From Actinomycetes bacterium (GTDB lineage Bacteria > Actinomycetota > Actinomycetes > S36-B12 > GCA-2699445): a DNA stretch of 54,298 nt. The position numbers and the translations under genes are program-made. Under the pieces are notes generated by a model, which worked only from the letters and a program-made list of their open reading frames with translations, searched no databases and was not told where the DNA came from. The stretch is from the NCBI GenBank assembly GCA_022599915.1, contig JAHZLH010000068.1, forward strand, positions 1 to 54,298, written 5' to 3'. Below, piece by piece: positions 28,448 to 39,627 of the stretch (position 1 is its first letter; every line of letters begins with the position of its first letter).

Positions 28448-29136
28448 CGCAACCCTCCACTTCCGACCAGACTGTTAAGTACTGATTCAAAGAACCCGCG
28501 GCCATCCGTTCCCGGTGCGCCAGTCAGCGGGTCGATCGCGTGTTCCGGATGAGGCATCAAACCGACCACGTTGCCGCTTTCATTGCAGATGCCGGCGATG
28601 TCGCGGAAAGAGCCGTTGGGGTTGCCACCGATGTAGCGCACCACCACCCGACCATCCGTTTCGAGTTGATCCAACGTAGCGTCGTCGGCAACGTAGCGGC
28701 CTTCGCCGTGCTTAATCGGGATGAGGATTTCCTGCGACTCATCGTAGGAGTTGGTCCATGCGGTGCGACTGTTGTCCACCCGCAGCCACTGATCTCGGCA
28801 GACATAGTGCAACGACTCGTTGCGCGTGAGCGCTCCCGGCAGCAGATGTGATTCACACAAGATTTGGAATCCGTTGCAGATGCCCAGTACGGGCATTCCT
28901 TGTCCAGCGGCCGCAATGACTTCAGACATGATCGGAGCGAAACGGGCGATCGCACCGCACCGCAGGTAGTCGCCATAGGAGAATCCACCTGGCACCAGCA
29001 CGGCGTCGACGCCATCCAACGAATCGGAGGCGTGCCACACCGGCTGGGCAGAAAGTCCAGCAGCATCAAGAGCTCGACGGGAGTCCAGATCATCCAGCGA
29101 ACCGGGAAAGGTGATGACTCCGACGGAAGCGGTCAC
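28444..29136 (-). CDS. purQ: Phosphoribosylformylglycinamidine synthase, glutaminase subunit
   Basis: The 230-residue class I glutamine amidotransferase supplies ammonia to Pur[20 protein letters not shown] gives the oxyanion region, [11 protein letters not shown] carries the nucleophilic Cys, and [11 protein letters not shown] carries the catalytic His and Glu. Start is GTG overlapping the purS stop as GTGA. The order S-Q-L with four-base overlaps supports equal production of the subunits. Confidence 0.96.
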
Positions 29137-29384
29137 TGCTCGTTCTCCAGGCGCAGTGTGTAGTCCTCAATCACCGGGTTAGCCAGTAACTCGGCAGCCA
29201 ACCGGTCTACCGCCGCAGCTCGTTCCGCTTCCACGGGACCGTCGAGAGTTATCTCGAACCGTTTGCCCTGCCGGACATCGGCCACTCCCTCCAGACCCAA
29301 TCTCGCCAGGGCCGCTTGGATCGCCCGACCTTCCGGGTCGAGAATCTCCGGCTTCAACATGACATCAACAACGACGCGAGTCAC
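29133..29384 (-). CDS. purS: Phosphoribosylformylglycinamidine synthase subunit PurS
   Basis: The 83-residue protein opens [18 protein letters not shown] and continues [18 protein letters not shown], both typical of PurS, which bridges PurQ and PurL and helps ammonia transfer. I prefer the second of two close GTG codons because GGAG lies five bases before it and because the family begins just before RVVVDVM. It is the first gene of the S-Q-L operon. Confidence 0.93.
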
Positions 29385-29483
29385 AACCACTCCAGGGTCA
29401 CGGTGAGGTCCGCGGTTGCGAACCAGTACCAGCGTAACTGTGCCGACTGCCGCCGCCGCGCAGGCGTGGCCTGCGCAGTGGCA

Positions 29484-33754: not shown

Positions 33755-35035
33755 CTAGCCAGAAAAATCTGAACCGACGAGTTGTCGGTAGGCCTCTCGA
33801 TACCTCGCAGCAGTCTGCTCAACGATCTGATCGGGAAGTGGCGGCGGCGGTTCATCGCTGCTCGGTGACCAACCGGATTCCGAAGACTTCAGCCAATCCC
33901 GAGCGAACTGTTTATCGAAGGATGGCTGGCTGCGGCCCGGTTGCCAGGTGTCCAATGGCCAGAATCGGGAGGAATCTGGGGTCAGCACCTCATCAGCCAG
34001 GATCGCGCCGCTGCCGTCAGCGCGATGTCCAAACTCGAACTTGGTATCGGCGACAATAATGCCCCGGTCGCGGGCGACCTCCTCTGCCCGGGAGTAGACC
34101 CGCAGCGACAACTCCCGCAACTGGGTTGCCGTCTGCCGACCGACAACTTCCTTCATCTGTTCAAGGGAAATGTTTTCATCATGGTTGCCGATGTCAGCCT
34201 TGGTGGCTGGCGTGAAGATCGGTTCCGTCAATGCATCGCCTTCGACCAAGCCCCCCGGCAACGGCACGCCACACACCTTGCCCGATTCGTTGTAGTCCGC
34301 CAGACCGGAGCCAGCCAAGTAGCCACGCACAACGCATTCCACTGGATAGATCTGCAACGTCTCGCACACCACGGCTCGACCTCGAACCCGGTGGGGAACT
34401 TCCGTTGAGATCACGTGGTTAGGAACGATATCGCTCAGCTGGTCGAACCACCACAGACTCATTTGGGTCAGAATGGCGCCCTTATCCGGGATCGGTGTTG
34501 GCAACACCCAGTCGTAAGCGGAAATCCGGTCGCTGGCCACGACCAGCAGATTGTGGTCAGGGGTGGCAAACAGATCTCTTACTTTTCCGGAATAGGCGTG
34601 CCGATAGCCCTCCGGTAGATCTAGGTCACCGGCAGTAGGTCTAGGCGGCAGCGGCAGCCACGGCGTTATCACCCTAAAGCGTAACCAGGTGAGTGGCGCT
34701 ATCGGCTCAACGTCACCTGTCACTTCCTCAGCCCGAGCTGATGCTGCCGATTGCCATTCCGCTAGCGAAACGACTGTTGACCCTTCTGCTTCCGCCTGCG
34801 CCCAGGTGGCGGTCACTATCGTGGTACTCGCCGCATCCACTACCTCAGCCACCATTATGGTCGCGTCGCTTTCGTCAACTAGGCGAAACTTCTCCCCCGG
34901 GAGCCAAGCCCGGCTCTGGTCCGCGACGAAAATCGCCACCCGATCGCCACTAAGAATTTGCTCCTTGAGCTCCGGACCGACAGCGCCGCCAAGAGCCGCG
35001 ACTTTGATCGTGGGCAGTTGCTCCTGCTCGCTCAC
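33755..35035 (-). CDS. purC: ASCH-domain / SAICAR synthetase fusion
   Basis: Residues about 135-426 are SAICAR synthetase, which joins CAIR and aspartate (step 7): SGKVRDLF (149-156), VVASDRISAYDWVLPTPIPD, YPVECVVRGYLAGSG and DTKFEFG. The usual enzyme has 240-300 residues; this one has 426. The extra N-terminus (about 20-122) reads as an ASCH domain: LPGEKFRLVD, IMVAEVVDA, EGSTVVSLAEWQSAA and a final LRFRV strand. The GTG start overlaps the purB stop as GTGA, which supports translation of the extension. ASCH domains bind RNA or nucleosides, so a regulatory or ligand-binding role is possible. I know of no established example of this fusion. Confidence 0.85.
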   Translation of the reverse strand: MSEQEQLPTIKVAALGGAVGPELKEQILSGDRVAIFVADQSRAWLPGEKFRLVDESDATIMVAEVVDAASTTIVTATWAQAEAEGSTVVSLAEWQSAASARAEEVTGDVEPIAPLTWLRFRVITPWLPLPPRPTAGDLDLPEGYRHAYSGKVRDLFATPDHNLLVVASDRISAYDWVLPTPIPDKGAILTQMSLWWFDQLSDIVPNHVISTEVPHRVRGRAVVCETLQIYPVECVVRGYLAGSGLADYNESGKVCGVPLPGGLVEGDALTEPIFTPATKADIGNHDENISLEQMKEVVGRQTATQLRELSLRVYSRAEEVARDRGIIVADTKFEFGHRADGSGAILADEVLTPDSSRFWPLDTWQPGRSQPSFDKQFARDWLKSSESGWSPSSDEPPPPLPDQIVEQTAARYREAYRQLVGSDFSG

Positions 35036-36459
35036 AGAATTTCTCCTGGTTGGTAGTTGGCGGCCCGCGGGTGCTCGGCAACGATTGCGGCAATCCGATC
35101 TGCCACGGTGCGTACCTGGCTCGACGCGTCTCCAGTGAACGTCATCGGATCAGCTAGTACGGTCTCGATCTGCTCAGTCGAAAGCCCTAGTCGATCATCT
35201 GACGCCAGCCGCTCGATCAAGTCATTGTCAGCACCGGATTCGCGCATCGCTAGCGCGACCGCAACTGCGTTCCGTTTGATCGCCTCGTGCGCCTCTTCGC
35301 GACCAACACCGTTACGAACGGCAGCCATCAGTACCTTCGTAGTAGCGAGGAAGGGCAGGTAGCGGTCGCGTTCGGTTGCAATCACCGCCGGATAGGCACC
35401 GAAGTCGCGCAGGATTGTCAGGAAAGTTTCAAACATGCCGTCCGCTGCAAAGAAGGCATCCGGCAGCATCACCCGGCGGACCACCGAGCAGGACACGTCC
35501 CCTTCGTTCCACTGCGCCCCAGCCAAGTCATTGGCCATGGTCGCGTAGCCCCGCAGTAGCACCATGAACCCGCCGACGCGTTCGCAGGATCGAGCATTCA
35601 TCTTGTGGGGCATCGCCGAGGATCCAACTTGCCCCGGCTGGAACCCCTCGGTGGCGAGTTCCTGTCCTGCCATCAATCGAATCGTGGTGGCAAGCGAGGC
35701 CGGACCGGCCGCTACTTGGGTGAGCGCGCCCAGCACTTCCGCATCCAGCGATCGCGGATACACCTGACCGACGGAAGCGAGCACTCGCTGGAACCCCAGA
35801 TGAGCGGCGACGCGCTCCTCTAACTCGGACAACTTGTTGGTATCGCCACCCAGCAGATCCAGCATGTCCTGGGCGGTCCCCATCGGCCCTTTGATGCCCC
35901 GCAACGGCAACTGACCAATCAGTCTCTCCACCCGCTCGTAGGCGACCAGGAGCTCTTCGGCGGCTGACGCGAATCGTTTGCCTAGGGTGGTCATCTGGGC
36001 CGCGACGTTGTGGGAACGGCCGGCCATCGGCACCTCACTGTGCTGCACCGCAAGATCGGCCAACATCGCCAACGCAGCCACCATTTTGTCCCGGATCACC
36101 ACCAGCGAATCTCGGACCTGCATCTGCTCGACGTTCTCGGTCAGATCGCGACTGGTCATCCCCTTATGAATGTGTTCGTGTCCAGCGAGTGAGTTGAACT
36201 CCTCGATCCGGGCCTTCACATCGTGTTTGGTTACCAGTTCACGGCGAGCAATTGCGGCGAGGTCAACGACGTTCAACTGCTTCTCGTAGTCAGCAGCTAC
36301 GCCTTGGGGGATGTCCACGCCAAGATCGGCTTGTGCCGCCAGCACCGCTAGCCACAACTGCCGCTCCAACACGATCTTGTGCTCCGGCGACCAGATGTCG
36401 GCCATCGGGTCTGAGGCGTAGCGCGAGGCCAAAACATTTCCGATGTCCAAAGAACTCAC
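35032..36459 (-). CDS. purB: Adenylosuccinate lyase
   Basis: The 475-residue enzyme cleaves SAICAR and adenylosuccinate to release fumarate (steps 8 and the last step to AMP). The fumarase-superfamily signature is SSAMPHKMNARSCERV; MAGRSHNVAAQ and KGMTSRDLTEN are the other active-site regions. Length is normal. I chose a GTG seven codons into a longer TTG frame because purB proteins begin near SSLDIGNVLASRYAS and because GATGAT lies six bases upstream, a weak leaderless pattern. It is followed by purC with a four-base overlap. Confidence 0.92.
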   Translation of the reverse strand: MSSLDIGNVLASRYASDPMADIWSPEHKIVLERQLWLAVLAAQADLGVDIPQGVAADYEKQLNVVDLAAIARRELVTKHDVKARIEEFNSLAGHEHIHKGMTSRDLTENVEQMQVRDSLVVIRDKMVAALAMLADLAVQHSEVPMAGRSHNVAAQMTTLGKRFASAAEELLVAYERVERLIGQLPLRGIKGPMGTAQDMLDLLGGDTNKLSELEERVAAHLGFQRVLASVGQVYPRSLDAEVLGALTQVAAGPASLATTIRLMAGQELATEGFQPGQVGSSAMPHKMNARSCERVGGFMVLLRGYATMANDLAGAQWNEGDVSCSVVRRVMLPDAFFAADGMFETFLTILRDFGAYPAVIATERDRYLPFLATTKVLMAAVRNGVGREEAHEAIKRNAVAVALAMRESGADNDLIERLASDDRLGLSTEQIETVLADPMTFTGDASSQVRTVADRIAAIVAEHPRAANYQPGEIL

Positions 36460-36558
36460 GCTTCTATCATCCTCTCTCAACTACCGCTTTGCGCTAGCAG
36501 TATCCCGCTACTCGATCGAACCGGGTCATTGGTCTTCGTCGCGATCCTGATCCGTCCC

Positions 36559-37833
36559 TCAGCCGGGCAACACGATTGCGCCGAGCCGAGCCGCCCGGGC
36601 GATATCGCTACGGTGATGCGAGCCACGGATCTCGATTCGATCGATGCCCTGGTAGGCCCGATCAGCAGCCTCTGCGAGATCTGCGCCTCGTGCGGTGACA
36701 CTGAGTACTCGACCGCCACTGGTGACCAACCCACTTTCACCGGTCGCAGTCCCCGCATGCACCACTGCTACTTCGGTGACTTGCTCAGCCTCGGGGATAC
36801 CTGTGATCGAATCACCAGTCTGGACCGAAACCGGGTAGCCCTTCGCCGCTACCACGACACACACCGCTGCCCCATCGGACCAGACCGGATCCGGTTGCTG
36901 GCCCAGACTTCCTGCAGCTGCGGAACGCAGCAGCGGAAATAGCGGACTATCCAGCAGTCGTAGCACCGCTTGGATCTCGGGATCGCCGAAGCGAGCGTTG
37001 AACTCGACCACTTTCAAACCGCGGCTAGTCAGCGCCAGCCCGCAGTACAAGACACCCGCGAATGGAGTTCCGCGGCGGGCCATCTCTGTGATCGTGGGTC
37101 GTGCCACCTGAGTCATGATCTGCTCAACCAAATCGGGGGGCGCCCACGGGAGTGGGGTGTAGCTGCCCATACCGCCAGTGTTCGGTCCGGCATCGTCATC
37201 CCCCACCCGCTTGTGGTCTTGCGCGGGGAGCAGTGGCACTGCATCGGCACCGTCGGTGATGACGAAGAGTGATACCTCGGGTCCGTCGAGAAACTCTTCC
37301 ACCACAAGACTGCTGCCCTTGCTGAGACATTCTTGGGCGTGCCGCAGCGCAGCAGCACGATCGTCGGTCACCACGACACCCTTGCCACCGGCCAAACCGT
37401 CATCCTTCACCACGTAAGGAGCGCCGAAACAGTCCAGCGCGGCTACAACCTGATCCTCATCGGTGCAGGTCACACTCGCCGCGGTGGGAACGCCAGCAGC
37501 AGCCATGATTTCTTTCGCGAAGGCCTTGCTGCCCTCCAGTTGCGCGGCAGCGGCACTCGGGCCGAAACACAACAACCCCCGGCTCCGGATTTCGTCCGCA
37601 GCACCATTGACCAACGGCAGTTCCGGACCGATCACGACGAGATCGAACTCACCGTGCGCTGCCAGATCAGCTACTGCTACCGGGTCAGCGACGTCAACCG
37701 GCAGCACGGGAGCGACCGCAGCGATGCCAGCATTGCCTGGCGCCGCAACTACCTGCTCAACACCGGGATCGCTGAGTAATTTGCTTACCAACGCGTGTTC
37801 TCGGGCGCCGGACCCAACGACCAGAACCTTCAC
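36559..37833 (-). CDS. purD: Phosphoribosylamine-glycine ligase (GAR synthetase)
   Basis: The 424-residue ATP-grasp enzyme adds glycine to phosphoribosylamine (step 2). Typical features are MKVLVVGSGAREHALVSKL at the start, YVVKDDGLAGGKGVVV as the ATP-grasp lid, GPNTGGMGSYTPLPW, and KVVEFNARFGDPEIQAVL. The start is GTG overlapping the stop of the PNPOx-like gene as GTGA. It is followed by a short non-coding gap before purB. Confidence 0.96.
   Translation of the reverse strand: MKVLVVGSGAREHALVSKLLSDPGVEQVVAAPGNAGIAAVAPVLPVDVADPVAVADLAAHGEFDLVVIGPELPLVNGAADEIRSRGLLCFGPSAAAAQLEGSKAFAKEIMAAAGVPTAASVTCTDEDQVVAALDCFGAPYVVKDDGLAGGKGVVVTDDRAAALRHAQECLSKGSSLVVEEFLDGPEVSLFVITDGADAVPLLPAQDHKRVGDDDAGPNTGGMGSYTPLPWAPPDLVEQIMTQVARPTITEMARRGTPFAGVLYCGLALTSRGLKVVEFNARFGDPEIQAVLRLLDSPLFPLLRSAAAGSLGQQPDPVWSDGAAVCVVVAAKGYPVSVQTGDSITGIPEAEQVTEVAVVHAGTATGESGLVTSGGRVLSVTARGADLAEAADRAYQGIDRIEIRGSHHRSDIARAARLGAIVLPG

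Positions 37834-38322: not shown

Positions 38323-39627
<1,305 letters not shown>

Follow-up and report, generated by a model that had tools for sequence, protein, structure and literature searches.

Gene fusions that involve the SAICAR synthetase PurC are known, for example the PAICS-type PurC-PurE proteins. Domains of the ASCH type (PF04266) occur in actinobacteria as standalone proteins of about 130-150 amino acids. Domains of the ASCH/PUA superfamily have RNA or modified bases as their ligands (PMC7641849, PMC5615036), and the ASCH octapeptide has been defined as G-x-K-x-x-[ETS]-x-R (PMC9599836). Among the described relatives, YqfB of E. coli (1te7, 9kyf) is a free-standing N4-acetylcytidine (ac4C) amidohydrolase of 103 amino acids which is inactivated by each of the substitutions Lys21Ala, Thr24Ala and Arg26Ala (PMC6972931), while ZmASCH of Zymomonas mobilis is a ribonuclease with a basic RNA-binding cleft (PMC5615036). 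The locus described here lies on contig JAHZLH010000068.1 of an Actinomycetes bacterium (GCA_022599915.1), whose 54,298 nucleotides were analysed as a whole and are referred to as the window. In this case, a full PurC core is preceded by a domain which, judged by sequence comparison, is ASCH-derived, so that the partner, unlike that of the PAICS-type fusions, is N-terminal and is not a pathway enzyme. That the fusion exists is established, and it seems not to have been described before: the open-access papers searched, which leave out most subscription journals, yielded no ASCH-PurC protein, in agreement with the preliminary description of this stretch, whose author knew of none.

The fused gene is an open reading frame of 426 amino acids on the minus strand (35035-33755), with a GTG start and 0 internal stops, in which about 125 N-terminal residues and a linker lead into a complete SAICAR synthetase. 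Its parts and its neighbours in the purine cluster are as follows.

34661..35035, minus strand: ASCH-derived N-terminal domain (residues 1-125; hhalign score 51.2, probability 95%; G004 ortholog above the PF04266 cut-off)
34925..34948, minus strand: vestigial ASCH octapeptide (residues 30-37, GDRVAIFV, against GxKxx[ETS]xR; located by alignments and the motif of PMC9599836)
34610..34660, minus strand: proline-rich linker WLPLPPRPTAGDLDLPE (residues 126-142; conserved in part across the four fused orthologs)
33755..34609, minus strand: SAICAR synthetase (PurC) core and stop codon (residues 143-426; NF010568 over residues 143-423, PF01259)
35032..35035, minus strand: GTGA overlap of the fused-gene start and the purB stop (also in G001 and G002; Shine-Dalgarno-like AGGAG upstream)
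35032..36480, minus strand: purB, adenylosuccinate lyase, the upstream neighbour (PF00206 and PF10397; start codon not refined)
36559-37833: purD
38323-39609: purA
29133-29390: purS, named by eye from the sequence

The PurC core matches the equivalog model NF010568 across the full enzyme (residues 143-423; 404.5 bits, cut-off 251, E 2.4e-121) as well as PF01259 (residues 147-392; E 2.4e-76), and no other PurC was found in the genome assembly, which is 98.65% complete. The genes of the cluster are arranged in the order purA, a pyridoxamine-oxidase-like gene, purD, purB and the fused purC, with purQ and purL further on. The cluster is split between purC and purS-purQ-purL by the segment 29484-33653, with genes for a cation-antiporter-like protein, an FtsH-like AAA/M41 protease (plus strand) and a pentapeptide-repeat protein. 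The preliminary description had noticed about 120 extra residues ahead of the PurC core, a GTGA overlap of the GTG start with the purB stop and a frame continuous into the enzyme; all three observations hold, the extension amounting to about 125 residues plus the linker and the coordinates of the overlap agreeing with a purB that ends at 35032.

The GTG of the fused gene and the TGA of purB share the letters GTGA. In the window copy, a Shine-Dalgarno-like AGGAG lies just 5' of this GTG, and two assemblies, G001 and G002, both of the window's genus, show the same GTGA arrangement, with purine-rich sequence at a similar place. Moreover, none of the fused copies offers an in-frame start at a distance of 27 codons or less from the GKVRDL motif. 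Translation from an internal start is, for these reasons, unlikely, and a start near residue 135, which the preliminary description had considered, is disfavoured on the same grounds. If PurC were nevertheless made from an internal start, with the ASCH-like frame forming no part of the enzyme, the candidate would be a GTG at codon 122 in the window and at codon 119 in G004, an assembly of a sister genus in the same family, 28 codons before GKVRDL; however, there is no start codon at the corresponding place in G001 or G002, and GTG122 has only a directly abutting AGG, without a properly spaced ribosome site, whereas the upstream GTG has both AGGAG and the purB overlap. As the frame and the protein sequence of the extension are also conserved, this explanation is most improbable. 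An assembly artefact was rejected as the source of the fusion, since four assemblies carry it.

Taken alone, the domain escapes recognition: residues 1-133 of the window protein gave no match in Pfam at E<=10 and no ASCH match in NCBIfam, and the window copy itself does not reach the PF04266 gathering score. The G004 ortholog, in turn, scores 36.4 bits against PF04266 (cut-off 21.2, E 8.9e-9), covering positions 7-102 of 103, and that of G002 scores 15 bits, below the cut-off. When searched with tblastn, the G004 domain matched Streptomyces entries named 'ASCH domain-containing protein' with 35% identity (E 1e-9). A profile-profile comparison by hhalign left G004 out so as not to depend on it: the sequences of the window's genus, and no others, were aligned with 13 standalone ASCH proteins of actinobacteria over 104 columns, with a score of 51.2 and a probability of 95%, as against 20.2 for the best of 300 column shuffles and 11.2 for the reversed alignment. 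The homology covers the whole domain. The window sequence alone reached a score of 35.4 (probability 79%) against the standalone alignment. Furthermore, with fused and standalone sequences combined in one profile, the PDB ASCH entries 1t62 and 3s9x were retrieved, and YqfB weakly. Searched against the PDB by itself, the window domain gave chance matches only, and the AlphaFold2 model built from this one sequence, with no alignment as input, had a pLDDT of 38.5, a value too low to inform on the PUA-like beta-barrel of ASCH domains. Scans of viral contigs found no ASCH relatives, and weak matches in relatives to a Bromovirus movement protein and to pentapeptide were rejected, since they were isolated, scored under the cut-off and were not shared. 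The G004 match to PF04266, the Streptomyces matches, the profile comparison with its shuffles and the PDB entries together establish, at the level of sequence, that the N-terminal domain is ASCH-derived, a name preferred to canonical ASCH domain since the octapeptide is not matched. The ASCH relationship put forward in the preliminary description was thus borne out by G004 and by the genus-only profile, although direct comparison of residues 1-133 with PF04266 yielded nothing.

The window domain has the same length as the standalone actinobacterial proteins and keeps their motif order (LELG.PG, LVL.G.K, VGE, DV.W, AEGEG, W and the closing RF.LV). It differs from them in being fused to PurC and in the loop directly after GxKxA, which is 5-6 residues shorter in all fused copies. 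The nucleophile Thr, invariant in the standalone proteins, has been lost from every fused copy, Ile, Met, Val or Asp standing in its place; in the window's genus, moreover, Arg replaces Lys, and the His of the following helix and the second EG are lost, the octapeptide reading GDRVAIFV in the window copy. G004 is intermediate, with GAKVADLR (where the Lys is Lys28), EGEG and HxxVW retained. With respect to YqfB, whose G19-G36 loop is of the same length as G30-G47 of the window and gapless when read by eye, Lys21, Thr24 and Arg26 correspond in the alignment to Arg32, Ile35 and Val37, and only Glu74 has a retained counterpart, Glu84 (HMMER alignment), which is kept in all fused copies. Since the Thr is lost and the positions of Lys21 and Arg26 are replaced, ac4C-type hydrolysis by the window domain is unlikely. 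A moonlighting hydrolase fused to PurC, be it a YqfB-like ac4C amidohydrolase or an ASCH ribonuclease, would be in keeping with the homology to ASCH, with Glu84 and with Lys28 of G004, but the nucleophile is gone from all fused copies and the three residues changed in the window are those whose replacement by Ala inactivates YqfB (PMC6972931), which makes such an activity highly improbable.

Some residual binding of a ligand by the domain could survive, because Glu84 is kept and G004 keeps the Lys and the EGEG stretch. This bears on the idea of an allosteric or RNA/nucleotide-binding regulator, tuning either PurC activity or the translation of the pur operon. Such a role would agree with the RNA and modified-base ligands of ASCH/PUA-superfamily domains (PMC7641849, PMC5615036), with the TW.Q.EAE, W and L.W.RF positions, which no fused copy has changed, and with the domain being under purifying selection. 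Nevertheless, the octapeptide is lost in the window's genus, the domain is missing from the PurC of sister genera, and the pI is acidic (4.3 in the window, 4.0-4.3 in the genus), although the latter is only weak evidence against RNA binding because standalone relatives are acidic too; regulation of this kind is, on balance, unlikely. ZmASCH, a member of the same superfamily, has its basic RNA-binding cleft (PMC5615036), whereas the window domain is acidic and lacks GxKxxxxR. That the domain might be a working sensor of a nucleotide, a modified nucleoside or RNA, regulating PurC allosterically, appears improbable; if it were one, purine synthesis in this actinobacterial family would be coupled directly to RNA turnover. 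The sensing role and the moonlighting enzyme suggested in the preliminary description are therefore unsupported, given the octapeptide GDRVAIFV, the replacement of three YqfB-critical residues and the pI of 4.3.

In four assemblies, the reading frame of the fused domain has been preserved, with an identity of about 36-38%. The domain shows an excess of synonymous change in two comparisons, window against G002 (p 1.4e-7) and G002 against G001 (p 8e-8). In those pairs within the genus that allowed dS to be estimated, dN/dS was 0.22-0.52 for the domain, as against 0.08-0.12 for PurC where computable; dS is near saturation in most comparisons, and the ratios of the deeper pairs are rough for this reason. 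The domain is under constraint, since per site it has accumulated nonsynonymous changes far less often than synonymous ones (p about 1e-7), and this constraint is weaker than that on PurC: the two G001 copies show a nonsynonymous divergence of 0.077 in the domain and 0.026 in PurC, a 3 times difference (p 0.019). Between these two copies, taken on their own, the purifying selection on the domain does not reach significance (p 0.11). The faster protein change, together with the loss of the signature residues and the existence of three family members without the domain, would also be expected if the extension were a selectively near-neutral leftover of the fusion, tolerated because it folds without disturbing PurC. 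The conserved frame, the identity of about 36-38% and the clear synonymous excess argue against this explanation, which is a possible one but doubtful.

As regards its distribution, the fusion was found in related genomes, namely in four assemblies from two genera, three of them of the window's genus (including G001 and G002) and one, G004, of the sister genus. A profile of the fused domains, run against 166 genomes of the order, matched only these four assemblies and two standalone proteins. Searches with PF04266 (148 genomes of the order, 396 genomes of the phylum) and with a mixed profile (395 genomes of the class) likewise yielded standalone proteins; among the longest ASCH-containing open frames of the phylum and class searches, none contained PurC outside the known family, although rare fusions elsewhere could be missed since the searched genomes are samples of larger groups. 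At 57 further purC loci of actinobacteria, ASCH matches were found neither in PurC nor in the flanking sequence retrieved, which extended up to 5 kb; a fusion by operon decay, as suggested in the preliminary description, is thus no more than a possibility. Within the family, G003, G005 and G006 have a plain PurC without the extension, the sequence of G007 being cut at a contig end. In the PurC tree, G004 stands beside the unfused G005 with moderate support (89/84), a placement that would fit loss of the domain and counts for the near-neutral explanation. It is compatible both with one gain followed by losses and with a patchier history, and the fusion may have arisen in either way.

Other candidate fusions of ASCH domains were noticed. 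In G211, of the same phylum, a 552-codon frame (L093, 713-2368, plus strand) joins what reads like a class I aminoacyl-tRNA-synthetase-type ligase, with HLGT and KLSKS motifs, to a C-terminal in-frame ASCH domain that reads as a classical one (GRKTTEIR), and in G373, also of this phylum, an 892-codon frame (L092, 128-2803, minus strand) combines ASCH with an apparent sarcosine-oxidase-alpha/aminomethyltransferase-type protein. Elsewhere, two open frames (L091, 1009-2442, and L096, 1623-2657, both plus strand) carry ASCH and a C-terminal GNAT-like acetyltransferase domain, and a 575-codon frame of G326 (L095, 1030-2754, plus strand) reads as a methyltransferase, then ASCH, then a NUDIX-like domain.

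For the ASCH-PurC protein, the reading that we prefer, with about even confidence, is that the ASCH-derived domain in front of PurC is catalytically dead and has been retained for a structural role or for interactions. A domain of the standalone actinobacterial kind, to which homology is clear, would have been placed between purB and purC by a route that we can only infer, and would then have become the N-terminus of PurC by gene fusion. In the fused lineage, the core sequence of the domain was kept and the ligand/catalytic loop was lost. Because the domain has lost the loop, the Thr and, in the window's genus, the Lys, PurC most likely functions like any ordinary SAICAR synthetase. The domain in front of it is probably a support or is carried along inertly, rather than being a second enzyme. 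As a non-catalytic accessory module, it may serve in folding, in oligomer contacts or in contacts with a neighbouring pathway enzyme, and it would be maintained by moderate purifying selection.

The case underlines that part of the ASCH family escapes Pfam and is detectable only through intermediates. A universal, essential enzyme appears here in a domain architecture which was not found described in the literature searched, and ASCH-PurC is a small, testable system of an ASCH domain recruited into core metabolism while its active site was being lost.
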